Shown here: positions 31,141 through 46,456 of the stretch, in pieces
Layout: each line of letters starts with the position of its first letter
How positions within the stretch are numbered: the stretch's first letter is position 1
NCBI GenBank assembly: GCA_017402995.1
Contig: JAFQOV010000004.1
Location: 1 to 54,484 of the forward strand
From: Candidatus Gastranaerophilales bacterium
GTDB taxonomy: Bacteria; Cyanobacteriota; Vampirovibrionia; Gastranaerophilales; Gastranaerophilaceae
Direction: 5' to 3'
Length of the DNA stretch: 54,484 bases
Notes under the pieces: model-generated
What the model was told of the DNA's origin: nothing
Database searches by the model: none
Seen by the model: only the letters and a program-made list of their open reading frames with translations
Position numbers and translations under genes: made by a program

Positions 31141-31503
31141 ATAATAACGGATATTTTAAATAAATTAGCAAAATCAAAATTTAGAAGCAGACTTAAGCTT
31201 CGGGCAAAAGAACTTGAATATATCAATGATAAAGGACTTGATAAAGTCAAAAGCCACGCAGAAGATTTTATTCGGGATAGAGTTGCTCCGGCAGAACCTG
31301 CAAACGACGGCAAACAAACCCCAATGCGAGGGCATCCTGTTTTTATCGCTCAACACGCAACCGCAACCTGTTGCCGTGACTGCATCGAAAAATGGCACAA
31401 ATTCCCCCAACACAGAGAACTAACCAAAAGCGAGCAAGAATATCTTGTTTCAGTAATTATGGAATGGATAAATAGACAAATTAATTCAAACCCCGTTTTA
31501 TAA
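31141..31503 (+). pseudogene. DUF4186 family gene without a canonical start codon
   Basis: The frame is open from 31141 to the TAA at 31501 (120 codons) and holds the conserved DUF4186 core (TPMRGHPVFIAQHATATCC, then RDCIEKWHKF and LTKSEQEYLVSVIMEWI). Upstream in frame are only ATA, ATA, ACG, GAT, ATT after a stop; the first ATG is at 31324, inside the core. Either the start was lost, making a pseudogene, or a rare ATA/ATT start is used. The function of DUF4186 is unknown. It lies directly before the 39-bp repeat. Confidence 0.6.
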
Positions 31504-31542
31504 CGGTTCAAAATATGTTCAAAACCATGTTTGTGATACCCT
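31504..31542 (+). repeat. 39-bp upstream element, copy 1 (reverse transcriptase)
   Basis: Begins CGGTTCAAAATATG and ends CATGTTTGTGATACCCT. It differs from copy 2 at 33103 in only two of 39 positions. It holds GTTCAAA twice at an 11-bp period (31506-31512 and 31517-31523) and an extended -10-like TGTGATACC. It ends 16 nt before the ATG of the reverse transcriptase. Confidence 0.75.
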
Positions 31543-31558
31543 AAAAAGAAAATGGAGT

Positions 31559-33085
31559 ATGATTTTGGCTACAAAAAATGTTTTAAGTTTATCACCAAGT
31601 AAGGCAAAAGAATTTTTTCTTAAAGAAGAAATGTATTCAAATATAACATTGCCAACATATTTTAGTTTTCAGAAATTATTGGATAAATTAGACAAAAGAT
31701 TACAAAATAAAAATTTAAAAAATTATTTCACTGCAAATGACAAACCCTATAATTATGATGATGTAAATTATATAATTTATAACAACAAAGATGGTTGTTA
31801 TGCATGGAGACCATTACAATTATTAAATCCTATAATTTATGTAGCTTTGGTAAATTATATAACTCAAGATCATGTTTGGAAGTTAATCAAAAAACAATTC
31901 AAGAAATTTCAAAAAAACAAAAAAATTTCTAGTAAAGGTATTCCGGTATTAAAATCTCCAAAGAAAAAACAACAAGCGAGTCAAGTTGCCAATTGGTGGA
32001 ATGAAGTTGAACAATTGTCTTTAGAACAAGCTCTAGAATATTCATTTTTATTTTCTACTGATATTTCAGATTGCTATGGTTCTATATATACGCACTCTAT
32101 TTCATGGGCTCTACATGGAAAATCAACTGCTAAACAGGCAATAAAAAATTCGTCTATCAATCTTGAAGGAGATGAAATCGACACTTTAATTAGATATATG
32201 ACAAATAACCAAACTAATGGTATTCCTCAAGGTTCTGTTTTGATGGATTTTATTGCTGAAATTGTATTAGGTTATGCGGATTTACTTTTAACACAAAAAT
32301 TAAATAATAATGGTATAGAAGATTATAAAATAATTCGATACAGAGATGATTATCGCATTTTTGTACGTAACACTCAAACTGGTAATCAAATAATAAAATA
32401 CTTAACAGAAGTAATGATTGAATTAGGATTTAAATTAAATGCAACAAAAACACAAAAAACAGAAGATGTAATCGAGGGTTCTTTAAAGAAAGATAAGTTA
32501 TATAGAATTTCCCATTTAGAAGATTTAAATAAGTTCTGCTTAAATAAAGGTAATTTACAAAAGCAACTTATTAGGATTTATGATTTTGCTAAAAGATTTC
32601 CAAATTCTGGTAGCTTGCAAGCTTTATTAATGGAATACAATAAAAATTTAAAATTTAAAAAAGATGATAAAAATATAGTTCCTATAATAAGTATCGCATT
32701 TTCTATTGCATATAATAATCCAAGAGTATATCCTACAATAGCGGCGATTATAGGGAAATCCCTGTCATATTTATCCGATTTCAGTAAAAGATATGATATT
32801 ATACTCAAGATAGAGAAAAAACTTGAAGAAAAACCGAATACTGAATATATGGAAATCTGGTTACAGAGAATAATATATAATGATGACTACTTTCAAGAAT
32901 ATAATTCTGATATTTGTAAACTTGTAATGGATAAGACAAAACCTCCTTTATGGAATATTGATTGGGTAAGTAATGGTTTGAAAAATATAGTTAATAATAC
33001 TCCGATCATCAATTATGAAGAATTAAATAACCTTGATTCCGATATTAGAGATGATGAAATTGATATATTCTACTATGATGATTAG
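31559..33085 (+). CDS. Defence-type reverse transcriptase (UG/DRT/Abi-like), YRDD active site
   Basis: 508 aa single-protein reverse transcriptase with no intron or retron parts visible. Motif A is STDISDCYGSIYTH (Asp168), GIPQGSVLMDFIAE is motif B, and IIRYRDDYRIF carries the catalytic pair in YRDD (261-264). Residues ~300-500 are a helical C-terminal region. Such stand-alone RTs belong to the unknown-group/Abi clade that gives phage resistance; I cannot fix the class (DRT4/UG15-like is a guess). The GGAG site lies only 1 nt before ATG 31559 but 6 nt before TTG 31565, and by comparison with the genes after copies 2 and 3 the TTG is the more likely start. Confidence 0.8.
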   Translation: MILATKNVLSLSPSKAKEFFLKEEMYSNITLPTYFSFQKLLDKLDKRLQNKNLKNYFTANDKPYNYDDVNYIIYNNKDGCYAWRPLQLLNPIIYVALVNYITQDHVWKLIKKQFKKFQKNKKISSKGIPVLKSPKKKQQASQVANWWNEVEQLSLEQALEYSFLFSTDISDCYGSIYTHSISWALHGKSTAKQAIKNSSINLEGDEIDTLIRYMTNNQTNGIPQGSVLMDFIAEIVLGYADLLLTQKLNNNGIEDYKIIRYRDDYRIFVRNTQTGNQIIKYLTEVMIELGFKLNATKTQKTEDVIEGSLKKDKLYRISHLEDLNKFCLNKGNLQKQLIRIYDFAKRFPNSGSLQALLMEYNKNLKFKKDDKNIVPIISIAFSIAYNNPRVYPTIAAIIGKSLSYLSDFSKRYDIILKIEKKLEEKPNTEYMEIWLQRIIYNDDYFQEYNSDICKLVMDKTKPPLWNIDWVSNGLKNIVNNTPIINYEELNNLDSDIRDDEIDIFYYDD

Positions 33086-33102: not shown

Positions 33103-33141
33103 CGGTTCAAAATATGTTCAAATCCATGTTTGTGCTACCCT
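33103..33141 (+). repeat. 39-bp upstream element, copy 2 (AIPR gene)
   Basis: Identical to copy 1 except A to T after the second GTTCAAA and A to C in the TGTG(A/C)TACCC core. It ends 20 nt before the AIPR ATG, with AGGAG between. It lies after the RT stop (33085), so the element is intergenic in both cases. Confidence 0.75.
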
Positions 33142-33161
33142 TTAATAAAAAGGAGTAAAGT

Positions 33162-34985
33162 ATGGCTAAAAAAGAACAGAAGAATGATATTTTCAAAAAT
33201 AACATGTTAGAAGAAATGCTAAAAATTGCTAACAGCGATGACATGGGCTATGCTTTGAAAAACCCCGGTGACATAAATTCTCTGCCTACAAAGACAAAAG
33301 GAACATTGTTTCTTAAATTTTATTTAAATGAAATCTTCCAAAAATTATATAATATAGATAGTGATGCGATAGAACAAGGAATTGTAGATAATGCAAATGA
33401 TAAAGGAATTGATTTTATAACCATTGATGACGATAAGGTTTATATAATACAAGCAAAATATAATTCAAAACCATTAAAAGAAATTCAAGATTTTATCAAT
33501 TTACCAGAAAGCATAAAAACGGACCTTTATAAAAATACATGTAATGCCGAATTAAAAGCATATTTTGCTGAAATCAAAAATAAAAAAAATTTAGAATATA
33601 ATTTATTCTTTGTTACAAATGAAAAAGTAACAACCGAAGAAGAAGAATATTATACTTCACTTGCCAAAAATGAAAATGTTCAATTTTCAATTATCGATTC
33701 GACAAAATTAAGAACAGACTATGAGAGTATAAAAACAATGGGGGATAATCCACCGGATAGGATAATATTAAATTTAGGTAATGAAGATGTAATGGAATTA
33801 GATACAATATCTCCAAATGAAACTATTTTAATAACACAAAAGGGCAGCAAATTAAGAAGTTTATACCAAAATAGAGAATATCGCGAAAGATTGTTTAATT
33901 TGAATATTAGACAATGGTTGGGCAAAAATACTGTTAATAAAGGAATGATTGAAACAATAGAAAAAACACCGGATAAATTTTTCTATTACAATAATGGAAT
34001 AACAGCTATTTGTGAAGATTATTACTGGAACAAAGAAAAACAAGAACTCTCGTGTACAAAATTTCAAGTCGTCAATGGTGCACAAACATTAACGACAATC
34101 GCAAAAGAATCCGAAAGTATTGATTTAAGTGATGTAAAAGTACTAATAAAAATAGTAAAAGCTGACAAATATACCAGTGGTGATAAAGAAAGCAGTTTAG
34201 CTTTTAACATTGTTAAAAATAACAATAGTCAGACTGTTATTAAATCAATCGATTTCAGAAGTAATGATGAAATTCAAATCGCTATAGAAAACAAGGTAAA
34301 AGATTATAAATTAAAATATCCACTAGAATATCCTATGTCCAAGGATATTGCATATAAGCGAAAACGAAGATTGAATGAACTAAAAAAGAAAACTATTTCA
34401 ATGGAAAATATTGCGAAAACATATTACAGCATGTTTTTGAATCCTCCTGATATTTATTTAAGTTCTAAAAAGATGTGGGATATAACCGAAAATGGTTTTT
34501 ATTATAAAATTTTCGGTGTAAATGGACAAAAAACAAATACTATAACAGATGAAAAATTTTATAAACTCTTTGCAAGTTACTATATTTATTCGTATATAGA
34601 CATAAAAATTAAAGACAAACTAAAAACATTAAGCAAAGATGAATATCCTCCATACTACTTCAAATATCATATTTTATGGGGTATTAATGAGCTTCTAAAT
34701 ATCAAATATACTGATGAACAAATAATTAGAATATTTAAACAAATAGTTAGCAAAGGCTATTATGTGAATGCACAAATACATGAAACAAAAGAACATAATT
34801 TTAGCATCTATTTTGATAAAGTTCAACGATTTATTATCAGTAAAGTTGATGAAGCTAAAGAAGATGTTGAAAATGTTGCTTTCAGAAGTCTTTTAACAGG
34901 TGATAAATTTTTGAAAGCATTAAGAAGGAGAATTTTAGAAGAACGAGCAGAAGACCTGCCAGAACTCATTCCCGATGGTGAATAA
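33162..34985 (+). CDS. AIPR (abortive infection phage resistance) family protein with nuclease-like N-terminus
   Basis: 607 aa. The AIPR core is visible at about residues 220-330: LRSLYQNREYRERLFNLNIR, then FFYYNNGITAICEDY and QVVNGAQTLTTIAKE. The N-terminus has GIDFITIDDDKVYIIQAKYN, in which Asp84 and Q97-x-Lys99 form a PD-(D/E)XK-like centre. AIPR proteins were first linked to lactococcal phage abortive infection. The strong AGGAG site lies 6 nt from the ATG. It follows the second 39-bp element, so it is probably transcribed apart from the RT. The next gene starts 152 bp later. Confidence 0.85.
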   Translation: MAKKEQKNDIFKNNMLEEMLKIANSDDMGYALKNPGDINSLPTKTKGTLFLKFYLNEIFQKLYNIDSDAIEQGIVDNANDKGIDFITIDDDKVYIIQAKYNSKPLKEIQDFINLPESIKTDLYKNTCNAELKAYFAEIKNKKNLEYNLFFVTNEKVTTEEEEYYTSLAKNENVQFSIIDSTKLRTDYESIKTMGDNPPDRIILNLGNEDVMELDTISPNETILITQKGSKLRSLYQNREYRERLFNLNIRQWLGKNTVNKGMIETIEKTPDKFFYYNNGITAICEDYYWNKEKQELSCTKFQVVNGAQTLTTIAKESESIDLSDVKVLIKIVKADKYTSGDKESSLAFNIVKNNNSQTVIKSIDFRSNDEIQIAIENKVKDYKLKYPLEYPMSKDIAYKRKRRLNELKKKTISMENIAKTYYSMFLNPPDIYLSSKKMWDITENGFYYKIFGVNGQKTNTITDEKFYKLFASYYIYSYIDIKIKDKLKTLSKDEYPPYYFKYHILWGINELLNIKYTDEQIIRIFKQIVSKGYYVNAQIHETKEHNFSIYFDKVQRFIISKVDEAKEDVENVAFRSLLTGDKFLKALRRRILEERAEDLPELIPDGE

Positions 34986-35920: not shown

Positions 35921-36057
35921 TTATTAAATTAGCGTTCAGAATGCTTGCAAAGTTTGGTTTTATCGTAATTTATATATACATTTTTATTATGGGTAACGAA
36001 AAATACGAATAATCTGAAGATTGGTGTTTAGATAATGTAGGGACTGTTATTGAATCG

Positions 36058-36074
36058 CATGTTTGTGATACCCT
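36058..36074 (+). repeat. Core of the 39-bp upstream element, copy 3 (McrB locus)
   Basis: CATGTTTGTGATACCCT is identical to the core of copy 1 over 17 bases and continues AAAA in both. The GTTCAAA pair is not preserved upstream. It ends 20 nt before ATG 36095, the same distance as copy 2, with AAAGGA between. This marks 36095 as the ancestral translation start of the mcrB locus. Confidence 0.65.
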
Positions 36075-36094
36075 AAAAGAAAAAGGAATGGTCT

Positions 36095-36405
36095 ATGGAA
36101 GATATTAAAGTAATTCGTGAAAAATTTAGAAAATATTTGTATAAGCTGGTAGCAGATAATAAATTAAGTAAAGTTGATGCAGATACTTAATATTCTGATG
36201 CAGATTATCCACGAAAACATGCTGACGAATTAGGAATTAATTATTGGGAAGCTTTTAGAGATGATGCTAGTCTTGAAAATCTATTATCTATTTTAAAAGA
36301 ACGATTTGAAAAAGAAGGAAAAATCCTTCCGCAATTGTATCTTATAAAAGAGCTTTAAAAAGTTTTAGGAATTTTATAGAAGAACAATATGCTGGAGTTA
36401 AAAAT
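36095..36405 (+). pseudogene. Broken N-terminal segment of mcrB
   Basis: From ATG 36095 the frame gives MEDIKVIREKFRKYLYKLV and then a TAA at 36188-36190. Reading past it, sensible sequence continues (DYPRKHADELGINYWEAF) up to 36319. A one-base shift back at the AAAAA run (36319-36323) then joins it to PSAIVSYKRALKSFRNF and on, without a stop, into the McrB reading frame at 36406. The ancestor thus had about 100 more N-terminal residues, resembling the helical recognition region often found on McrB-type proteins. Two lesions make this a real decay, or a sequencing problem, rather than one slip. Confidence 0.65.
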
Positions 36406-38199
36406 ATGCGCAATGGTTCACAAAAAAAATATTACTGGGTATGTCAAGGACAACAAAAAGAAGACAAAAAATATATATTAGCACCGGTGGATAACTTTCA
36501 TCATCATAAACGTGTAAACGAATTAAAAGTCGGCGATGTTGTAATTAGTTATTTTAATCAACAAGTTAATGCTATTTCTACAGTAATAAAAAAACCTGAA
36601 ATAATAAAAAATGGAAATGATGATTGGTATAAAGCTGTTTTAGACTATAAAGAATTAGATAAACCTATTCCAAAATCAGTTATAAAAAATATTATGAAAA
36701 ATAATAATATTAAATCATTTATATATGGTCCTTTTGATGTTAATTATGATTATAATCAAGGTTATTTATTTAATTTCTCTAAAGAATTGTTAGATTTAAT
36801 ATTAGAAAATGATCAGGAGGTAAAAATTATGAAATCATCTAGGAAAGAAGAAAAGCAACCTTTAAATCAGATTTTATATGGACCTCCTGGAACCGGTAAA
36901 ACATATAATACAGTTATAAAAGCAATGGAGATAATTAATCCAAAATGTCTTGAATATGATGAAAAAGGAAAGGTTAGTAACTATTTTGATGTAAAAAAAG
37001 AATTTGATAAAGCAAAAGATAACCATCAAATTGAATTTGTAACATTTCATCAATCCTATTCTTATGAAGAATTTGTTGAAGGTATAAAACCAAACTTAGA
37101 AAAGGATGGTTTAAATTATTACAAGCCAGACGGAATATTTAAGAAAATTTGTAAAAATGCTTCTAAAAATTTGTACAAACTAAATAATAATCAAAAAATG
37201 CAACAGGTTTCGTTTGATGAGGTTATGGATAGTTTTAAGGAAAAACATCCAGAAGGCTCAGATTTTGAGAATTTATTGGATATCTCATACGAAGAAAACA
37301 ATTTAATATATCATTTTGGGATGCAAGAACAAGATAGAAAAATTGACCTGTTAAAAATGGAGCAACTGTTTAATTTAAATAAACAATATAGAACATCCAT
37401 AGATTTTAATAATGAATATGGCGGGAATGTATCATTAAAAGGATATTACCATACTTTTTATAAAGAATTACTTAATATAAAAAATGCGTTAGAAGATGAA
37501 AATCAAGTAGCGATTGAAAACAATAAAGAATACATTGTTGATGAAAATGCTCCAAAATATGTTTTAATTATAGATGAAATTAATAGAGGTAATATTTCCA
37601 AAATTTTTGGAGAATTAATTACTCTAATAGAACCAGACAAGAGAAAAGGCTCTCAATATGAATTAAAGGTATCCTTACCATATTCTCCAAATGATGAATT
37701 GTTTGGGGTCCCAAAAAATTTATATATCATAGGTACAATGAACACGTCTGACCGTTCTATTGCTTCAATAGATATAGCTTTAAGACGTCGTTTTAAATTT
37801 CAAGAAATGATGCCAAATAGTAGTTTAGTTGCAGATTTTGGTATTGGATTTAATACAATATTTGATAACTTGAATAATAAAATTAAACTTTTGTTAGATA
37901 GAGATCATCAAATTGGGCATAGTTATTTTATAAATACAAAATACAATAATAGTAATGGAAACAATAATGTTGAAACCTTAAAAGATATATGGTTCAGTGA
38001 AATATTGCCATTATTAAATGAGTATTTTTATTGCGATTGGGAGAAATTAAAGCTTATTATTCCTGGATTTATCAAAAAACTTGATGTTCCAGAAGTCCTA
38101 AAGAATGAGTGTGACGATTCTATATACGAATTCAAAACATTTGATGAAGTTACAGATTTTGAAAAAGCATTAAATCAAGAAAAATTTGAACAGGTATAA
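36406..38199 (+). CDS. mcrB: McrB-type AAA+ GTPase with N-terminal EVE/PUA-like domain
   Basis: 597 aa. Residues 1-~140 (KKYYWVCQGQQ; HHHKRVNELKVGDVVISYF; FIYGPFDV) look like an EVE/PUA-like modified-base reader. Then comes the McrB motor: Walker A GPPGTGKT (159-166), VEFVTFHQSYSYEEFVEGIK, Walker B VLIIDEINRGNISKIFGE (Asp390, Glu391), and TMNTSDRSIASIDIALRRRF. McrB binds modified DNA and drives the McrC nuclease by GTP hydrolysis. GGAG lies 8 nt before this ATG, so translation can start here, like the natural short McrB form of E. coli, despite the broken upstream segment. mcrC follows 2 bp later. Confidence 0.88.
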   Translation: MRNGSQKKYYWVCQGQQKEDKKYILAPVDNFHHHKRVNELKVGDVVISYFNQQVNAISTVIKKPEIIKNGNDDWYKAVLDYKELDKPIPKSVIKNIMKNNNIKSFIYGPFDVNYDYNQGYLFNFSKELLDLILENDQEVKIMKSSRKEEKQPLNQILYGPPGTGKTYNTVIKAMEIINPKCLEYDEKGKVSNYFDVKKEFDKAKDNHQIEFVTFHQSYSYEEFVEGIKPNLEKDGLNYYKPDGIFKKICKNASKNLYKLNNNQKMQQVSFDEVMDSFKEKHPEGSDFENLLDISYEENNLIYHFGMQEQDRKIDLLKMEQLFNLNKQYRTSIDFNNEYGGNVSLKGYYHTFYKELLNIKNALEDENQVAIENNKEYIVDENAPKYVLIIDEINRGNISKIFGELITLIEPDKRKGSQYELKVSLPYSPNDELFGVPKNLYIIGTMNTSDRSIASIDIALRRRFKFQEMMPNSSLVADFGIGFNTIFDNLNNKIKLLLDRDHQIGHSYFINTKYNNSNGNNNVETLKDIWFSEILPLLNEYFYCDWEKLKLIIPGFIKKLDVPEVLKNECDDSIYEFKTFDEVTDFEKALNQEKFEQV

Positions 38200-38201
38200 C
38201 A

Positions 38202-39434
38202 ATGGCAGAACCTATTGTTGTTAAAGAGTATTCTAAAAATATTAAAATTAAAGATTGCGATTTGGGCAAGTTGCATCATTATTTGGAGTGCCAACACTTA
38301 GATTCTGCGTTGAAAGTTACTCCTAGTGGCATAGAAACAACTTTTTGGGTTGGGGTTATAAAGTATAAAAATACGCACTTTCAAATTCTACCAAAATTAA
38401 TATGTAATAATGGAGACAAAGAGAATATTTTAAAAAATCTAATTTATATGCTTTCATATACAAAAAAGTTAGACATAAAAACGAGTAATGAATCAAGATT
38501 ATCTACCGCAAAAAATCCATTTATTGAAATACTAATAAGAGAATATGCAAAATCACTTTTTGAATGTTTGAAACGCTTAACGCCGAAAAAATATGTAAGA
38601 GAAGAAGATAACATAAACTATTTAAAAGGAAAAATAAAATTTACTGAAAATATCCGGTATAACAGCTCAAACCAGGCAAAATTCTATTGCGAATATGATG
38701 AATTTTCAGAAAACAATATTTTGAATCAGTTGTTTTTATTTGTTTCGACCTGTTTATACAATATTTCAAACGACAGTTACAATAAAAAAACTCTAAAATT
38801 TATAATGAATTACTATACGGATATCAAATTGGTTCGCTTTGATAGATTCAAGGCAGAAAAAATAAAGTTATCCCGTAACCAAGAATTATTTAAGAAACCA
38901 TTTAATTTAGCAAAAATGTTTGTTGAAAAAACGAGTGTAGATTTATCTAAAAACAAGTTTGAAAATATTACTCTAATTTGGGATATGAATAAATTATTTG
39001 AAGAATTTATTTTTGAAATAATGAAAAAGAATGAAACTGAGTTTGGATGGACATTTACAGCGCAAAAAGGCAAACGTTTATTAGCCGGTGATGATAATAA
39101 AAAGAGAAATACCTATGTGGATATTTATGCAGAGAATGACAAGGATAAAATTATTTTGGATACCAAATATAAAATATTTACAGGAACAGATGATTTTTCA
39201 AATGCAGATGTTTTCCAAGTTTCAACATATTGTTTATTGCATAATGCAGACAAAGCAGTTCTTATATATCCAAGATGGAATAAAGAAGTTCCAAATGTAC
39301 CAAGTTTTAAATTAAATACTGATGAAAAAGATATAAAAATTAATTTTAAAACTATAGATTTATGTTATACGAATTTAAAACAACATTTAGAAGAAATCAG
39401 GGATGATATCAAAGAAATTTTAAAAGTTGCTTAA
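38202..39434 (+). CDS. mcrC: McrC nuclease subunit
   Basis: 410 aa. The N-terminal half is the McrC interaction region (VVKEYSKNIKIKDCDLGKLH ... FWVGVIKYKNTHFQILPKLI). The C-terminal PD-(D/E)XK nuclease has YVDIYAENDKDKIILDTKYK with Asp307, Asp320 and Lys322. McrC cuts DNA when translocated by McrB rings, as a modification-dependent restriction system. It starts 2 bp after mcrB, consistent with an operon. All catalytic residues are present. The end overlaps a decayed minus-strand gene. Confidence 0.88.
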   Translation: MAEPIVVKEYSKNIKIKDCDLGKLHHYLECQHLDSALKVTPSGIETTFWVGVIKYKNTHFQILPKLICNNGDKENILKNLIYMLSYTKKLDIKTSNESRLSTAKNPFIEILIREYAKSLFECLKRLTPKKYVREEDNINYLKGKIKFTENIRYNSSNQAKFYCEYDEFSENNILNQLFLFVSTCLYNISNDSYNKKTLKFIMNYYTDIKLVRFDRFKAEKIKLSRNQELFKKPFNLAKMFVEKTSVDLSKNKFENITLIWDMNKLFEEFIFEIMKKNETEFGWTFTAQKGKRLLAGDDNKKRNTYVDIYAENDKDKIILDTKYKIFTGTDDFSNADVFQVSTYCLLHNADKAVLIYPRWNKEVPNVPSFKLNTDEKDIKINFKTIDLCYTNLKQHLEEIRDDIKEILKVA

Positions 39435-39697
39435 AGTCGTTCGATATACCAATTAGAAATTCCAAAATGATTAAAATTCCATTGAAGTTCAAAATAAAAA
39501 TTAAACTCCAAAGAATTGCCATCTTTGAAGTTCCAGGAATACTTATTAATTGTGTTTTGCGGTAACTTTCAAACGCATCCTGAATTTCTTTTGCAAACTT
39601 TTTTCTGAATTCGGAATACGGAATTTCTAATGTCTCTTTGGTTAATTTATTTTTTCAAAATCTTTGTCCCATATAGCTTGTAATCTTTTTCAACCAT
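39431..39697 (-). pseudogene. Decayed small gene with two compensating frameshifts
   Basis: AAAGGAG lies 6 nt before ATG 39697. The frame gives MVEKDYKLYGTKILKK and a stop after an A6 run. Removing one A from that run restores TLEIPYSEFRKKFAKEIQDA, and a second shift returns to the first frame for NFKDGNSLEFNFYFELQWNF, ending SNWYIERL at 39431. The net length is exactly 89 codons, so the two indels cancel. The original ~88-aa protein matches no family I know. It overlaps the mcrC stop. Confidence 0.5.
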
Positions 39698-40627: not shown

Positions 40628-41857
40628 ATGACAGTAGCAAATAAAGAACGTGTAAAAAAGGCAATGAGAAGTGTTGGAATAAACACTATGACTGAGTTAG
40701 CAAATGAAGTTGGTATTACCAAAAACCAGCTTTCATTAATTTTATCTGATAGGTATAACCCCATAAAATCTACATTTTTTGAATTAAGTGAAGTATTGAG
40801 AGTTACTCCCGATAAAATTATAGATTTTCAAGAGAAAAATAAGAAAAAAAGTAAAAAAATAACTAAAACTTCTAAATATTCGGCAATAGAATTATTTGCT
40901 GGCGGAGGTGGACTTGCACTCGGGCTAGAACAAGCTGGGATTGAAACAATTTTACATGTCGATAATGATAAATACTGCTGTGATACTCTATCTAAAAATA
41001 GACCAAATTGGAATGTGATCTGTTCAGATGTATCTAAAGTAGATTTTAAACCATACAAAGGCAAAATAAATATCGTTACGGGTGGCTTTCCTTGTCAAGC
41101 ATTCAGTTATGCTGGTAAAAAATTAGGATTCGAAGATACTAGAGGAACATTATTTTATGAATTTGCACGCTGTGTGAAGGAAACTGAACCTATAATCTTT
41201 GTCGCAGAAAATGTTAGAGGCTTGATTTCTCATGACAATGGACGAACTCTTAAAACAATAATTGATATATTTGAAAGTTTAGGTTACAACATCCAAACAA
41301 AACTTTTAAATGCGGTAAATTACAATGTGCCTCAAAAAAGAGAACGGATTGTAATTGTTGGCACTAAAAAAGGTACAAATATAAAATTTGAATACCCAAA
41401 AGAATCTAAAAAGATTAAAACATTGCGTGATGCACTAAAAAATGTACCAAAATCTGAAGGGCAAGCCTATAGTGCTGCTAAAAAAGCAGTATTTAAACTC
41501 GTCCCCCCTGGAGGTTGTTGGAGAGATTTGCCATTAAATGTTCAAAAATCATATATGGGAAAAAGTTTTACTAGTGGTGGTGGTAGAACAGGAATGGCAA
41601 GAAGAATTTCTTGGGATGAACCTTGTTTGACATTGACATGTTCTCCAAGTCAAAAACAAACGGATCGATGCCATCCCGATGAAGTAAGACCTTTTACTGT
41701 TAGAGAATATGCTCGCATACAAACTTTTCCTGATGATTGGGAATTTACCGGAGGCATTGGACAAAAATATAAACAAATAGGCAATGCCGTTCCAGTTGAA
41801 TTAGCAAGGCAAATTGGAGTACAAATTATAAAGGCTATAGATACATATACAAAATAA
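40628..41857 (+). CDS. DNA (cytosine-5-)-methyltransferase with N-terminal HTH
   Basis: 409 aa. Residues ~10-68 are an XRE-type helix-turn-helix (LANEVGITKNQLSLILSDRY). The catalytic part follows: motif I LFAGGGGLALGLEQAG (SAM binding), motif IV GGFPCQAFSYAG with catalytic Cys156, motif VI VAENVRGL, motif VIII PQKRERIVIVG, then a short target-recognition region, and motif IX-X VRPFTVREYARIQTFPDDW. The HTH fusion is known in type II methyltransferases that repress their own operon (SsoII/EcoRII type). It pairs with the convergent nuclease gene 2 bp away. Target site not readable. Confidence 0.92.
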   Translation: MTVANKERVKKAMRSVGINTMTELANEVGITKNQLSLILSDRYNPIKSTFFELSEVLRVTPDKIIDFQEKNKKKSKKITKTSKYSAIELFAGGGGLALGLEQAGIETILHVDNDKYCCDTLSKNRPNWNVICSDVSKVDFKPYKGKINIVTGGFPCQAFSYAGKKLGFEDTRGTLFYEFARCVKETEPIIFVAENVRGLISHDNGRTLKTIIDIFESLGYNIQTKLLNAVNYNVPQKRERIVIVGTKKGTNIKFEYPKESKKIKTLRDALKNVPKSEGQAYSAAKKAVFKLVPPGGCWRDLPLNVQKSYMGKSFTSGGGRTGMARRISWDEPCLTLTCSPSQKQTDRCHPDEVRPFTVREYARIQTFPDDWEFTGGIGQKYKQIGNAVPVELARQIGVQIIKAIDTYTK

Positions 41858-41859
41858 AG

Positions 41860-42555
41860 CTATAATTGCTCAGATAGTTCATGAATTACTTCCTTTATCA
41901 AATCTGTGCTATCAACTTCATCTGCAATAGATACGAATGAGTGGATCAATTCATTATAGAAATTCTCATCTCCAGTTAATCTGTGCCAGAATTCTTGACC
42001 AATAATAACGGGATATTCTTCATTGATTGTTTTATAAAATTGTGATAAATTATCGGGTTCACCATATAAAACTCCAACAATACAATCAATATTTGGATTA
42101 AAGTTTGGCAAATGATTCACTCTTGCTAGATTTTTTATAGCTTTAAAATCATCTTTTATTGAAGTTATATCGGCATAATTTATTGTATTTGGACCAGATT
42201 TAATTTGGCAATACTTTTTTCTACCATCGAGTGCATCCACAAATTCAATATCAATACCTGAAGTCGTAGATGCAAGTCCTGAAAGAACTTCACAACAGAA
42301 TGTCTGTATTTGTGCTCCAAAAGAAGTATTAATTGATGTTCCCAAAATTCTAGGATATACAAGAGCTTTTGCAATACTTTCTTTTGAAGTATCGCCAAAT
42401 GCAAAATTCGCTAAATAATTAATCAGAAAAGGATTAATGATAAATTCTTTTTTCTTTTTCAACTTTTTAGTATTTTTAATATGGTTTTCTACGATATTAT
42501 CTTTGAAGAAAGCTTTGGCTTTAGATAAGATCTCTCGTTTCTCTTGTTCGTTCAT
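41860..42555 (-). CDS. Type II restriction endonuclease, PmeII-like
   Basis: 231 aa. NPFLINYLANFAFGDTSKES, then YPRILGTSINTSFGAQIQTF and TTSGIDIEFVDALDGRKKY with CQIKSGPNTINYADI match what I recall of the PmeII family. Asp102/Glu104 and Lys119 (Q-I-K) would form the PD-(D/E)XK centre. It faces the m5C methyltransferase tail to tail with 2 bp between stops, the usual arrangement of a type II pair. AAGAGG lies upstream of the ATG. Family name from memory of motifs; restriction role well supported by context. Confidence 0.75.
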   Translation of the reverse strand: MNEQEKREILSKAKAFFKDNIVENHIKNTKKLKKKKEFIINPFLINYLANFAFGDTSKESIAKALVYPRILGTSINTSFGAQIQTFCCEVLSGLASTTSGIDIEFVDALDGRKKYCQIKSGPNTINYADITSIKDDFKAIKNLARVNHLPNFNPNIDCIVGVLYGEPDNLSQFYKTINEEYPVIIGQEFWHRLTGDENFYNELIHSFVSIADEVDSTDLIKEVIHELSEQL

Positions 42556-42599: not shown

Positions 42600-44909
42600 C
42601 TATTCATTTTGTAACAAAGATTCTACCTTATCATAAATATAGTTTTCATAGTTATCAAAACTATATTTAGTTATATCGGCATCACTGACTTTATCATCTT
42701 CAAGCGCTTCATAATAATCTAAAACTTTTAACGGAACACCATAATCGCTTATTTGACGGCCTTTTTGACTAATTGCATTATATTCAAGTTTTGTGAGTAA
42801 TTTATCTATTCCCGTAACATCATCTATTTTTGAAATATTGTCATTTGTTTTAATATATTTATACATTAAATTAAAAACCCCAAGATATTTAACAACGTGG
42901 TATTTTAAAATATTGTATACAAAATTAGCGGTATCTCTCATTGCCGTATCTATATTTACTTTTTTATTTAATTTATTATCTACAGCACCTCTAAAACCAT
43001 CTTTTAAGTAAAAATATAACAAATAGCATAAAATAGAATATTCTTTGCCACTATAGGAACTTTTAGATTTATTTGATATAAGATGATATAATTCTGTTTC
43101 TGGTTTTACGATTGGAAGAATGGTATTTAAAACAACTTGAAAACCATCCAAATCAATATTCATACCACGTATATTAGTTTTGGATATTAGAGTTGATATG
43201 CTTTTATTTTCATAATTATTTAATTTCTTAATTTTATCGTATATAAAAATTTTATCATTCCGGCTAACAGCTTTAAATTGTTGGAATAGTTCATTAGGAA
43301 GCTTTCGTTCGCGTTGTTTTTTTATTATTGCATTTTTTTCTTGGATATTTTGTTCATTTAAGTATTTTTCTTGTGTACAAAAATAATCAATATCGTCTTT
43401 AGGAATATCTTTATCATAATTTTTATGTTTAATAGATTCTTCCGGGGTATTTAAAGTATCTTCGAAGTCTTTTATAAAAGCAAATACCCTTCCGCTATAA
43501 TGTTCCAGAAAACGTCCCGCTCTTCCTGCAATATTTTTCGCATCGAATGGTTTTAAGGGCTTTGAACCTTTTGAATTATGCATTACTATTAGGTTTTTTG
43601 CAGTAGTATTTACACCTTCTGTAATTGTTGTAGTAGATAATAGAAATTTAATTTTGCCATCATTAAATAAATTTATGATTTCTTTTTGAATATATTTTGG
43701 GACAAGACCATGATGAAGGCCGATTCTATGTTCGAGTGCTTTGCAGACTATCCAATCAGAATAAAATCTCCGTTTTATATGTTCAATAAAGTCGGTATAT
43801 TCTAATGTATTAACATCTATATCTATGTTATCCATTATTTTTTGTGCATATCGCTCCGCTAAATACGGTTTACAACAATATATAATAGAATTTTCTTGAT
43901 TATCATAAATATTTGTAAGTAAATCAATTAACTGTTTATTCTTATCTTTGGGCTTTGAAAAATTTATAATACGATTTTCATTTATAGCTACAAAATCTGT
44001 ATCTTTATTTACTAAAAAATGATTTTTATTGACAATCTCTATATTATTAAAATTTATGGTATCTATTTTATTTTCATCTAAAAAGATTTTAAAAGAATTG
44101 TTCGCGGATGTATCATATTCAATGTATGGTCCAGCCAATAGTACATCTTTTACATTTTGAAGTATCTCAAATGAAGCTAATCTGTAAGCAACATCACGTT
44201 CATTTTCTTTTGTTGTGTTATCAATAATATAATCATTATCCAACTTATATATTTCATCAATAAAAACGAAATCAAAATCAATTTTATTTTTATCTGTAAA
44301 TGATAAAAATCGTTCAGGAGTATATATGAATATATTTTTATCTTCTATTCCATCTGTTTCACTTAAAGTATGAATTTTATAATTCGCTTTTATATATTTA
44401 TAATTATTTTCAGTTAAAATTCGCTCTAAATTCTCAGATAATAAAGCAACTGTTGGAAATATTAAAACAATATTTTTATATTCCATTTTTTCTATAATGT
44501 CATAAACTAAATGTGTTTTCCCGAAAGAAGTACTTGCGGATAAAAAATAACGATTTTGTTTATTTTTTTCAAATTTATCCAATATTTCTTTTTGATATCT
44601 GTGGAGTTTATAACTTTCCGATAGGTGCAATGAACTTTCATTTAACAAAGAAGCCATTGTTGTCATATCGCAGGCATTGATAGTCGTATTCTGTCCAAAA
44701 TTTTTATTTAAAATATCATAATAATGTGGAATACCAATAACATTTGAAATATATTTCATAAATTTTAATTCAGCTTGAGTTATTGATTGATTTTTTAGCT
44801 TGTCAAAATAATGACAAACAGCCTTTATTAACTCGGCATCCTCTATTTTATTATCTTGATATTCATTTATCTTTTTTACAACAATACTTGCTTCTTCTCT
44901 TCTATCCAT
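42600..44909 (-). CDS. hamB: Hachiman defence helicase HamB
   Basis: 769 aa superfamily 2 helicase. Walker A is ASTSFGKT (125-132), Walker B FVFIDEIYKLDN (Asp218, Glu219), then LLSTTTITEGVNTTAKN (motif V region, ~424-439) and AGRAGRFLEH (motif VI, 461-470). Helicases of this form with a DUF1837 partner make the Hachiman system, in which HamB senses phage DNA and releases HamA nuclease. The gene overlaps the 3' end of hamA by 34 nt, implying translational coupling. All ATPase motifs are present. Confidence 0.82.
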   Translation of the reverse strand: MDRREEASIVVKKINEYQDNKIEDAELIKAVCHYFDKLKNQSITQAELKFMKYISNVIGIPHYYDILNKNFGQNTTINACDMTTMASLLNESSLHLSESYKLHRYQKEILDKFEKNKQNRYFLSASTSFGKTHLVYDIIEKMEYKNIVLIFPTVALLSENLERILTENNYKYIKANYKIHTLSETDGIEDKNIFIYTPERFLSFTDKNKIDFDFVFIDEIYKLDNDYIIDNTTKENERDVAYRLASFEILQNVKDVLLAGPYIEYDTSANNSFKIFLDENKIDTINFNNIEIVNKNHFLVNKDTDFVAINENRIINFSKPKDKNKQLIDLLTNIYDNQENSIIYCCKPYLAERYAQKIMDNIDIDVNTLEYTDFIEHIKRRFYSDWIVCKALEHRIGLHHGLVPKYIQKEIINLFNDGKIKFLLSTTTITEGVNTTAKNLIVMHNSKGSKPLKPFDAKNIAGRAGRFLEHYSGRVFAFIKDFEDTLNTPEESIKHKNYDKDIPKDDIDYFCTQEKYLNEQNIQEKNAIIKKQRERKLPNELFQQFKAVSRNDKIFIYDKIKKLNNYENKSISTLISKTNIRGMNIDLDGFQVVLNTILPIVKPETELYHLISNKSKSSYSGKEYSILCYLLYFYLKDGFRGAVDNKLNKKVNIDTAMRDTANFVYNILKYHVVKYLGVFNLMYKYIKTNDNISKIDDVTGIDKLLTKLEYNAISQKGRQISDYGVPLKVLDYYEALEDDKVSDADITKYSFDNYENYIYDKVESLLQNE

Positions 44910-45778
44910 TTAAGAATCTCTTTTTTAATTTCTTTAACTTCATGCACAGGAAGAAGTATAAAAAATATTGAATACGGGATATCTAAACCGCATTTATAAT
45001 CACTATAATTGCTTTTTATGTAATTCACAACCTTAGTAATGTTAGATTCATACGTTAATGTATTTGCACCATATACTAGTAGAATTGGATAAACTAATTT
45101 TAAATTGTATTTTTTTATTTGTTCAATAAGGTTTATGTCGTTGTATTTCCAATTTTCTAAAATTTGTTTTACACTTTCTGCATTTGGTTTTGCTGCTTCA
45201 ATTTTATTATCAATAGAATAGAAAGTTTGCTCCAAGTACTCCATTGATAATGCTTTATCAATATTCTCCATAACACTTTTAATGGCACTATTATGACTTT
45301 CGTGAAATTTTACTTCGCCAAACCACAATTCTATTTGCCCACCATTGTTAAAAATATGGTAGCTGTCATAACCTTTTGTTTCAGAATTTTCTAACGGATC
45401 AAAAAATCTGCCACGTGATATGAAGGAATCTTTTCCGTACAATGCTTTTAATATTGTACAAAGTAACACTTCACCAAAGAATCCGGCTTTAGCATTTGCA
45501 TCATTGTCAATTTCATCTTTAATATATTTTATTTTGTTAGATAATGCTGCAGAATGCATATTTTGTAATTTATTGTAATCATTCTTTGGAAATGTTTCAT
45601 AAGAATATTCAATAATAGAATTATATATTATTTTAACCAAATTATCAGTATTTATACAGTTATAACAGTCGTCATTTTGCGTTGAAAAACATACTCTTTC
45701 AATTCCGTGCTCTTTACAAGGAAGAGCGTATTGATAAATTATGGTTTTTTCTATTAACTCTTTTAACTTATCCCTCAT
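44876..45778 (-). CDS. hamA: Hachiman nuclease HamA (DUF1837)
   Basis: 300 aa. The DUF1837 core is visible: KAGFFGEVLLCTILKALYG (Gly-Glu at 102-103), KGYDSYHIFNNGG (Asp138), and IELWFGEVKFHES, where Glu155 and Lys157 form the PD-(D/E)XK pair. A Cys cluster in the N-terminus (CKEHGIERVC, CYNC) may bind zinc; I do not recall it as a general HamA feature. The order hamA then hamB, same strand and overlapping, is the Hachiman layout. GGGGAA lies upstream of the ATG. Confidence 0.82.
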   Translation of the reverse strand: MRDKLKELIEKTIIYQYALPCKEHGIERVCFSTQNDDCYNCINTDNLVKIIYNSIIEYSYETFPKNDYNKLQNMHSAALSNKIKYIKDEIDNDANAKAGFFGEVLLCTILKALYGKDSFISRGRFFDPLENSETKGYDSYHIFNNGGQIELWFGEVKFHESHNSAIKSVMENIDKALSMEYLEQTFYSIDNKIEAAKPNAESVKQILENWKYNDINLIEQIKKYNLKLVYPILLVYGANTLTYESNITKVVNYIKSNYSDYKCGLDIPYSIFFILLPVHEVKEIKKEILKWIEEKKQVLL

Positions 45779-45917: not shown

Positions 45918-46456
45918 TTACAAATAAAAATTCATATAACTCTCATCTATGATATCCTGTTTGATGCCGATGTAGTGGAGGGTGATGGCGGAATATGAAT
46001 GGTTGAAAATCTTCTGCAGAAGTTCAATATTATCAAACTGTTTGTAATGATGGTAACCGAAAGTTTTGCGCAGAGAGTGTGTGCCGATTTTATCCTGAAG
46101 ATTTAATGTTTTTGCAGCCTTATTTAAAATCCTGTATGTCTGGTTGCGATCAAGTCTGTTGCCTTGTTGTGTAATAAATAATGGCTCGTCTTCCGGGCGG
46201 TTTTTTACAAAATCTTCAAGCACAACCTTTAACTCTGGATTTAACGGAAATCGCTTGTTTTTCTTCGTCTTTTTCTTTTTGATTTCGACATAATCCCTGC
46301 CCTTAACATTTCCTACATCAAGTTTCAAAATATCAGAAATCCTCAAGCCACAATTTATCCCGAAAATAAAAAGCACAAGGTCGCGTTTTTGCGTTTCAGC
46401 ACCGCCTTCTTTTTCTCAATATCCTCTCTATTCCTTATCGGTTGAACAATATTCAT
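45918..46456 (-). pseudogene. Frameshifted short tyrosine recombinase/integrase
   Basis: ATG 46456 has AGGAGG just upstream and opens MNIVQPIRNREDIEKKKAVL. Around 46377-46400 the frame must shift to reach the rest: FIFGINCGLRISD (catalytic Arg), RNQTYRILNKAA, GTHSLRKTFGYH (H-x-x-R) and HYIGI with the nucleophile Tyr. Full length would be ~178 aa, a minimal catalytic-domain recombinase like those of small mobile elements. The catalytic part stays open from GTG 46376. The HTH gene upstream is also frameshifted. This is a remnant of island mobility. Confidence 0.75.

Follow-up and report, generated by a model that had tools for sequence, protein, structure and literature searches.

An EVE-McrB gene with a broken helical N-terminal module that may still encode a complete protein

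Introduction

In the EVE-McrB family, modified DNA is selected by the EVE domain and cut by the ring of GTPase subunits acting with McrC. EVE-McrB is the commonest of the EVE fusions found in defence (PMC7641849). A short McrB is known from E. coli: this form, McrB-S, lacks the DNA-binding N-domain (PMC3874153). Here we analysed a McrB gene located on a DNA stretch of 54,484 nucleotides (the window), which is contig C1 of a 1.7-Mb genome present in 26 contigs. The gene is interrupted in an N-terminal module that precedes an EVE domain and a GTPase, and a gene for McrC follows directly.

Results

The N-terminal module of the McrB gene is interrupted twice

The 5′ part of the gene contains the following features:

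36058-36094, plus strand: leader before the original start, with a promoter-like core TTTGTGATACCCT (36062-36074; promoter role predicted) and a ribosome site
36095-36187, plus strand: module piece 1 (31 codons) from the original start ATG 36095; 28 of 31 residues are identical to the intact G067-type gene
36188-36190, plus strand: in-frame TAA within the module, read in the sequence; intact relatives are unbroken there
36191-36318, plus strand: module piece 2 in the frame of ATG 36095, matching intact relatives
36319-36323, plus strand: A5 run with a one-base frame change; compared with the intact G218 gene there is a one-base gap beside the run
36324-36405, plus strand: module piece 3 in the McrB frame, matching intact relatives
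36394-36408, plus strand: ribosome-site-like GGAG (36394-36397) and ATG 36406-36408, read in the sequence

ATG 36095, TAA 36188-36190, A5 36319-36323, GGAG 36394-36397 and ATG 36406-36408 are all found exactly where the preliminary description had placed them; it had proposed that a stop and a frameshift cost McrB an N-terminal domain of about 100 residues, which agrees with the unbroken state of intact homologs. The frame of ATG 36095 stops at TAA 36188 and is then open up to the A5 run, beyond which the similarity switches to the McrB frame. The open stretch of the McrB frame runs from 36310 to 38199, and the first ATG, GTG or TTG in it is ATG 36406.

To identify relatives, we queried 386 genomes of the phylum with a 105-residue read-through of the module in which X marks each break point. 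The expectation that intact homologs would carry the extension of about 100 residues was borne out: unbroken relatives were found in G218, G084, G412, G067, G220 and G064 (E 2e-26 to 4e-33), and a weaker one, in a 122-residue frame, in G309. A profile including some of the module relatives recovered the same set again (E 1e-43 to 1e-50). The E-values of both searches show that the similarity upstream is not due to chance. Relatives of the module were found neither in phage or plasmid records nor in viral contigs, and searches of the relatives and of the species-genome collection did not turn up a closer full-length copy.

The unbroken module is located in front of McrB in G067, G084, G412 and G516 (L126), the last of which carries the G067-type gene, as well as in G064 and G220; in G218 it precedes a HNH nuclease instead of McrB. 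In the McrB relatives the order is module, further region and GTPase, and the further region is EVE-like in G064, G220 and G042 according to sequence comparison. The module of G042, which lies before its EVE-like region and GTPase, is more distant.

The DNA from 36050 to 36405 is 75% identical to its unbroken counterpart in G218 (L067) over 357 columns, and the sole gap is one base long and lies beside the A5 run; identity to the G067-type gene is 79% over 304 columns. Since the first 31 codons differ from the G067-type gene at only three residues, the break looks young. The unbroken state of the module in front of McrB or the HNH nuclease in relatives likewise argues that the damage is real and recent. 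Thus, barring an assembly error, two recent lesions, a stop codon and a one-base frameshift, broke the module of about 100 residues.

A second broken gene was found in G449, where the McrB gene (L127, G449:C42:16000-18680) has an independent in-frame TAA at about module residue 71 and no start with a ribosome site downstream of this stop. The stops of the window gene and of G449 are located on different aligned residues; recoding of TAA was therefore rejected, since one reassigned codon cannot explain both. Programmed frameshifting alone is no route to the long protein either, because the stop lies 5′ of the A5 run.

The lost module is all helical and probably accessory

The model of the module is all helical (pLDDT 93). 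Its 14 best structural matches are all tyrosine recombinases, in which the alignment covers the N-terminal domain with Z-scores of at most 7.3 (integron integrase 7.3, Xer 7.0, Cre 6.1). Foldseek with the module gave no match below E 0.001, and the phage-integrase SAM-like Pfam models (Phage_int_SAM) match it weakly, below the cut-off, so that no match of the module is strong enough to be secure. Judged from the model, the module is most likely a DNA-binding accessory part. This helical, probably accessory module is also present in the HNH nuclease of G218 and is not the known 5mC-reading domain.

EVE domain, GTPase and McrC are retained

Downstream of the module, three parts can be distinguished:

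36406-36855 (end approximate), plus strand: EVE specificity domain with which the short McrB begins, assigned by fold match of the model
36856-38199, plus strand: McrB GTPase (AAA_5) with Walker A GPPGTGKT, Walker B VLIIDEINRG and the NTSD motif
38202-39434, plus strand: McrC, intact (PF10117, E 5.5e-59)

Residues 1-150 of the product starting at ATG 36406 were modelled as an EVE domain with a mean pLDDT of 69, which is moderate, and about 82 in the core. The best solved match of this model is the EVE-HNH protein VcaM4I (Foldseek E 1.7e-6, Z 12.7), followed by 2eve (Z 10.1) and human THYN1 with 5mC DNA (Z 9.8). By sequence, Pfam EVE gave no match in the short product; its placement with the EVE-McrB proteins, as an EVE fused to a McrB GTPase, is by the fold of this moderate-pLDDT model. 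The GTPase part matches AAA_5 (E 3e-12) and solved McrB proteins (E 3e-58 and 1.5e-36). It is an AAA+ McrB-type GTPase with the Walker motifs and NxxD (motifs as defined in PMC11090510), and together with the adjoining McrC gene and its PF10117 match this makes the pair a candidate McrBC type IV system. From ATG 36406 onwards, McrB is open for about 1,790 nt and contains the family motifs, and McrC is open throughout. The genome gave no second match to McrB.

The McrC is 94% identical to that of G346 (L124) with a dN/dS of about 0.05, and for the McrB core compared with G100 dN/dS is about 0.19. Both values indicate purifying selection; they also cover the period preceding the break and do not show selection after it. 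The GTPase is 54% identical to that of G100 versus 36% to that of G346. Since McrC is so similar to that of G346 but the GTPase resembles that of G100 more, there appears to have been mixing of heads, GTPases and McrCs; identities of 94% for McrC and 36% for the GTPase with the same locus (L124) indicate that McrB and McrC are not passed on as a single unit. At L049, L107, L116 and L119, and L124, the GTPase of McrB is preceded by other N-terminal heads.

An internal start is located between module and EVE domain

The preliminary description had also noted that the McrB frame keeps its own GGAG-ATG at 36394-36408; it is present and looks like a usable internal start. A ribosome-site-like motif precedes 5 of 230 (2.2%) internal in-frame ATGs in the ORFs of the window, so this start is somewhat unusual. 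The GGAG is formed by the codons of a Gly-Val pair that is also found in G218, and the Met of ATG 36406 replaces Leu or Phe of the relatives; therefore the start is probably an opportunistic use of existing sequence.

EVE-first McrBs that have no module are encoded in G001 and G003 and begin with MDKNH(D/N)VNYFWV, and the short product of the window begins with MRNGSQKKYYWV. In all of them the motif Y[FY]WV lies 8 residues after the start. ATG 36406 is thus located at a natural domain border, between module and EVE, and the equal spacing in the natural EVE-first proteins raises the possibility that the short form is complete. It had been considered that close relatives might begin at the position of ATG 36406 and show no similarity upstream: some do begin at the EVE domain, but others are clearly similar upstream.

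A leader is shared by unrelated defence genes

The leader preceding ATG 36095 is CATGTTTGTGATACCCTAAAAGAAAAAGGAATGGTCT. The upstream element CATGTTTGTGATACCCTAAAA occurs in the window at 31526, at 33125 (3 mismatches) and at 36058, and three matches were obtained in none of 100 shuffles, in line with the earlier observation that ATG 36095 has a shared upstream element and a ribosome site. The two other copies are:

31526-31558, plus strand: exact leader copy before the gene for an AbiP2-like reverse transcriptase (31559-33085)
33125-33161, plus strand: near copy before an AIPR-family (AbiU-like) gene (33162-34985)

A 16-mer of the leader has 28 exact sites in 24 of 383 genomes of the family, including the three in the window (loci L080-L104). 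Most of them are located about 36 nt 5′ of the start of a defence-type gene. The genes behind the leader are Mrr-like (8), McrB with three different heads (8, the broken window gene being additional) and GmrSD (3), as well as the module-HNH gene, reverse transcriptase, AIPR and others; one site precedes an apparent housekeeping gene, possibly by chance. The leader is therefore a near-identical stretch of about 40 bp that ends at the start codon and precedes unrelated defence genes. Its core, TTTGTGnTAnnnT, resembles an extended -10 promoter, and a second, related leader, ATTTTTGTGCTATCCT, is found before other McrBs.

The same upstream gene, followed by the leader and then by differing genes, was observed for G051 versus G346 and for the reverse transcriptase of the window versus G059. 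Among the 20 neighbourhoods fetched, 10 have a DUF4186 gene directly before the leader and 9 contain a Mu-type transposase gene, whole or partial; many of the defence genes behind the leader are cargo of Mu-like transposons. Tentatively, the Mu-like transposons of the family may have a dedicated cargo slot, in which unrelated defence genes are exchanged behind a promoter-like leader of about 40 bp; the N-terminal modules of McrB would be swapped and lost together with the slot, and new heads would thus come under a fixed promoter. The leader was also considered as a site-specific recombination site and rejected, as neither a flanking pair nor a link to a recombinase was found.

Other features of the window

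Two further features concern the surroundings of this cargo:

31150-31503, plus strand: DUF4186 frame, intact, without ATG, GTG or TTG where relatives have ATG
39434-39654, minus strand: remnant of a gene found 3′ of the same cargo in other genomes, in two frames with an internal stop

The DUF4186 frame matches PF13811 (E 6e-52) and is 86% identical to a relative. Two small intact marker genes are kept in the window, and the transposase of this genome is present only as a fragment on another contig. At 45918-46376 (minus strand) a tyrosine recombinase catalytic domain of 152 aa is encoded, apparently without its N-terminal part and with no tie to the leader. A helicase at 42600-45778 (minus strand) matches the PADLOC model for HamB over the full length (E 4e-301), and a neighbour of 300 aa may be its partner in a Hachiman-like pair. 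At 40628-42555 a gene for a Dcm-family 5mC methyltransferase adjoins one for an EcoO109I-like endonuclease. As the nearby McrBC could recognise modified cytosine, a self-conflict with this methyltransferase is possible.

Discussion

The ancestral gene would have encoded a three-part McrB, consisting of an all-helical module of about 100 residues, an EVE domain that reads modified bases and the McrB GTPase, in which, barring an assembly error, the module has since been broken by the stop codon and the one-base frameshift. Translation now most likely begins at ATG 36406, between module and EVE, and the product would be an EVE-GTPase McrB with the intact McrC as partner. Loss of the module should alter affinity or target choice rather than make a McrB-S-like regulator. 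We estimate a probability of about 0.52 that the gene encodes an EVE-McrB which has lost its accessory helical module and is still complete and possibly active. Several findings weigh against a complete short enzyme: the internal start lies about 330 nt from the predicted promoter, decay is also seen elsewhere in the island, and the gene of G449, which also has a stop in the module, lacks a good internal start.

Decay of this kind could mean that the gene is an early pseudogene, in which the module was the first part to break, the McrBC pair has ceased to function and the open remainder is too young to have decayed. The two lesions in the module would fit such a history, as would the upstream DUF4186 gene without its usual start codon, the broken downstream gene, the lack of a transposase nearby with only a fragment elsewhere in the genome, and the independent stop in the G449 module. 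We nevertheless consider it rather unlikely, since McrB from ATG 36406 and the whole of McrC are open with the family motifs kept, and the internal start with its ribosome site falls exactly on the natural domain border.

If the stop, the frameshift or both were sequencing or assembly errors, the full-length module-EVE-GTPase protein would be made. The frameshift is located in a homopolymer, a common type of error, and the genome was assembled in 26 contigs; however, the stop requires an independent substitution, and the neighbouring reverse transcriptase matches its G059 relative at 97.8% over all 508 residues in a gapless frame. The local sequence therefore looks reliable, and errors are an improbable explanation.

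It had been suggested that a short-only McrB could be inactive, re-aimed or regulatory; the parallel to the E. coli short form drawn there does not hold, as the product from ATG 36406 begins with EVE and thus contains a specificity domain; the protein may be inactive or re-aimed. Barring an assembly error, this product also does not occur beside a full-length McrB, because the long frame is interrupted twice and the genome search matched no other McrB. That the short McrB is a McrB-S-like regulator or decoy, or that module loss was selected against attack on the cell's own 5mC-methylated DNA, is very improbable: E. coli McrB-S, made from an internal start, can interfere with McrB-L (PMC3874153), the Dcm-family methyltransferase and EcoO109I-like nuclease are encoded nearby, and there is a documented precedent elsewhere for a 5mC methyltransferase that conflicts with a methylation-dependent nuclease (PMC8989522), but the product keeps EVE, whereas McrB-S has no specificity domain, the genome offers no second McrB as a target of regulation, and with EVE kept, reading of modified bases is not obviously abolished.

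For an EVE-McrB that lost its accessory module, the full EVE-GTPase-McrC layout is left, and natural homologs exist on both sides, with the module present and with it absent. Comparing these homologs would cleanly test what a type IV enzyme gains from an accessory head, and the case distinguishes the loss of a head from a short McrB as in E. coli. The leader common to unrelated defence genes hints at the route by which heads and genes are exchanged.

Compared with the described EVE-McrB type IV systems (PMC7641849, PMC11090510), the short product has the same layout, with EVE before the McrB GTPase and McrC adjoining; unlike these, the intact relatives found here add a helical module before EVE, which is broken in the window copy. 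E. coli McrBC (PMC3874153) likewise combines a GTPase with its partner McrC, and a shorter McrB can arise from an internal start. There, McrB-S has no DNA-binding domain and coexists with McrB-L, whereas the short form of the window keeps its specificity domain and the gene yields no readable long form. The EVE-HNH endonuclease VcaM4I (PMC7897488) is the closest solved EVE structure (Z 12.7), with a HNH nuclease in place of the McrB GTPase and McrC of the window. Tn7-like transposons also carry varied restriction genes as defence cargo (PMC8649781); the elements described here differ from them in having Mu-type transposases and cargo genes with one common short leader before the start codon.
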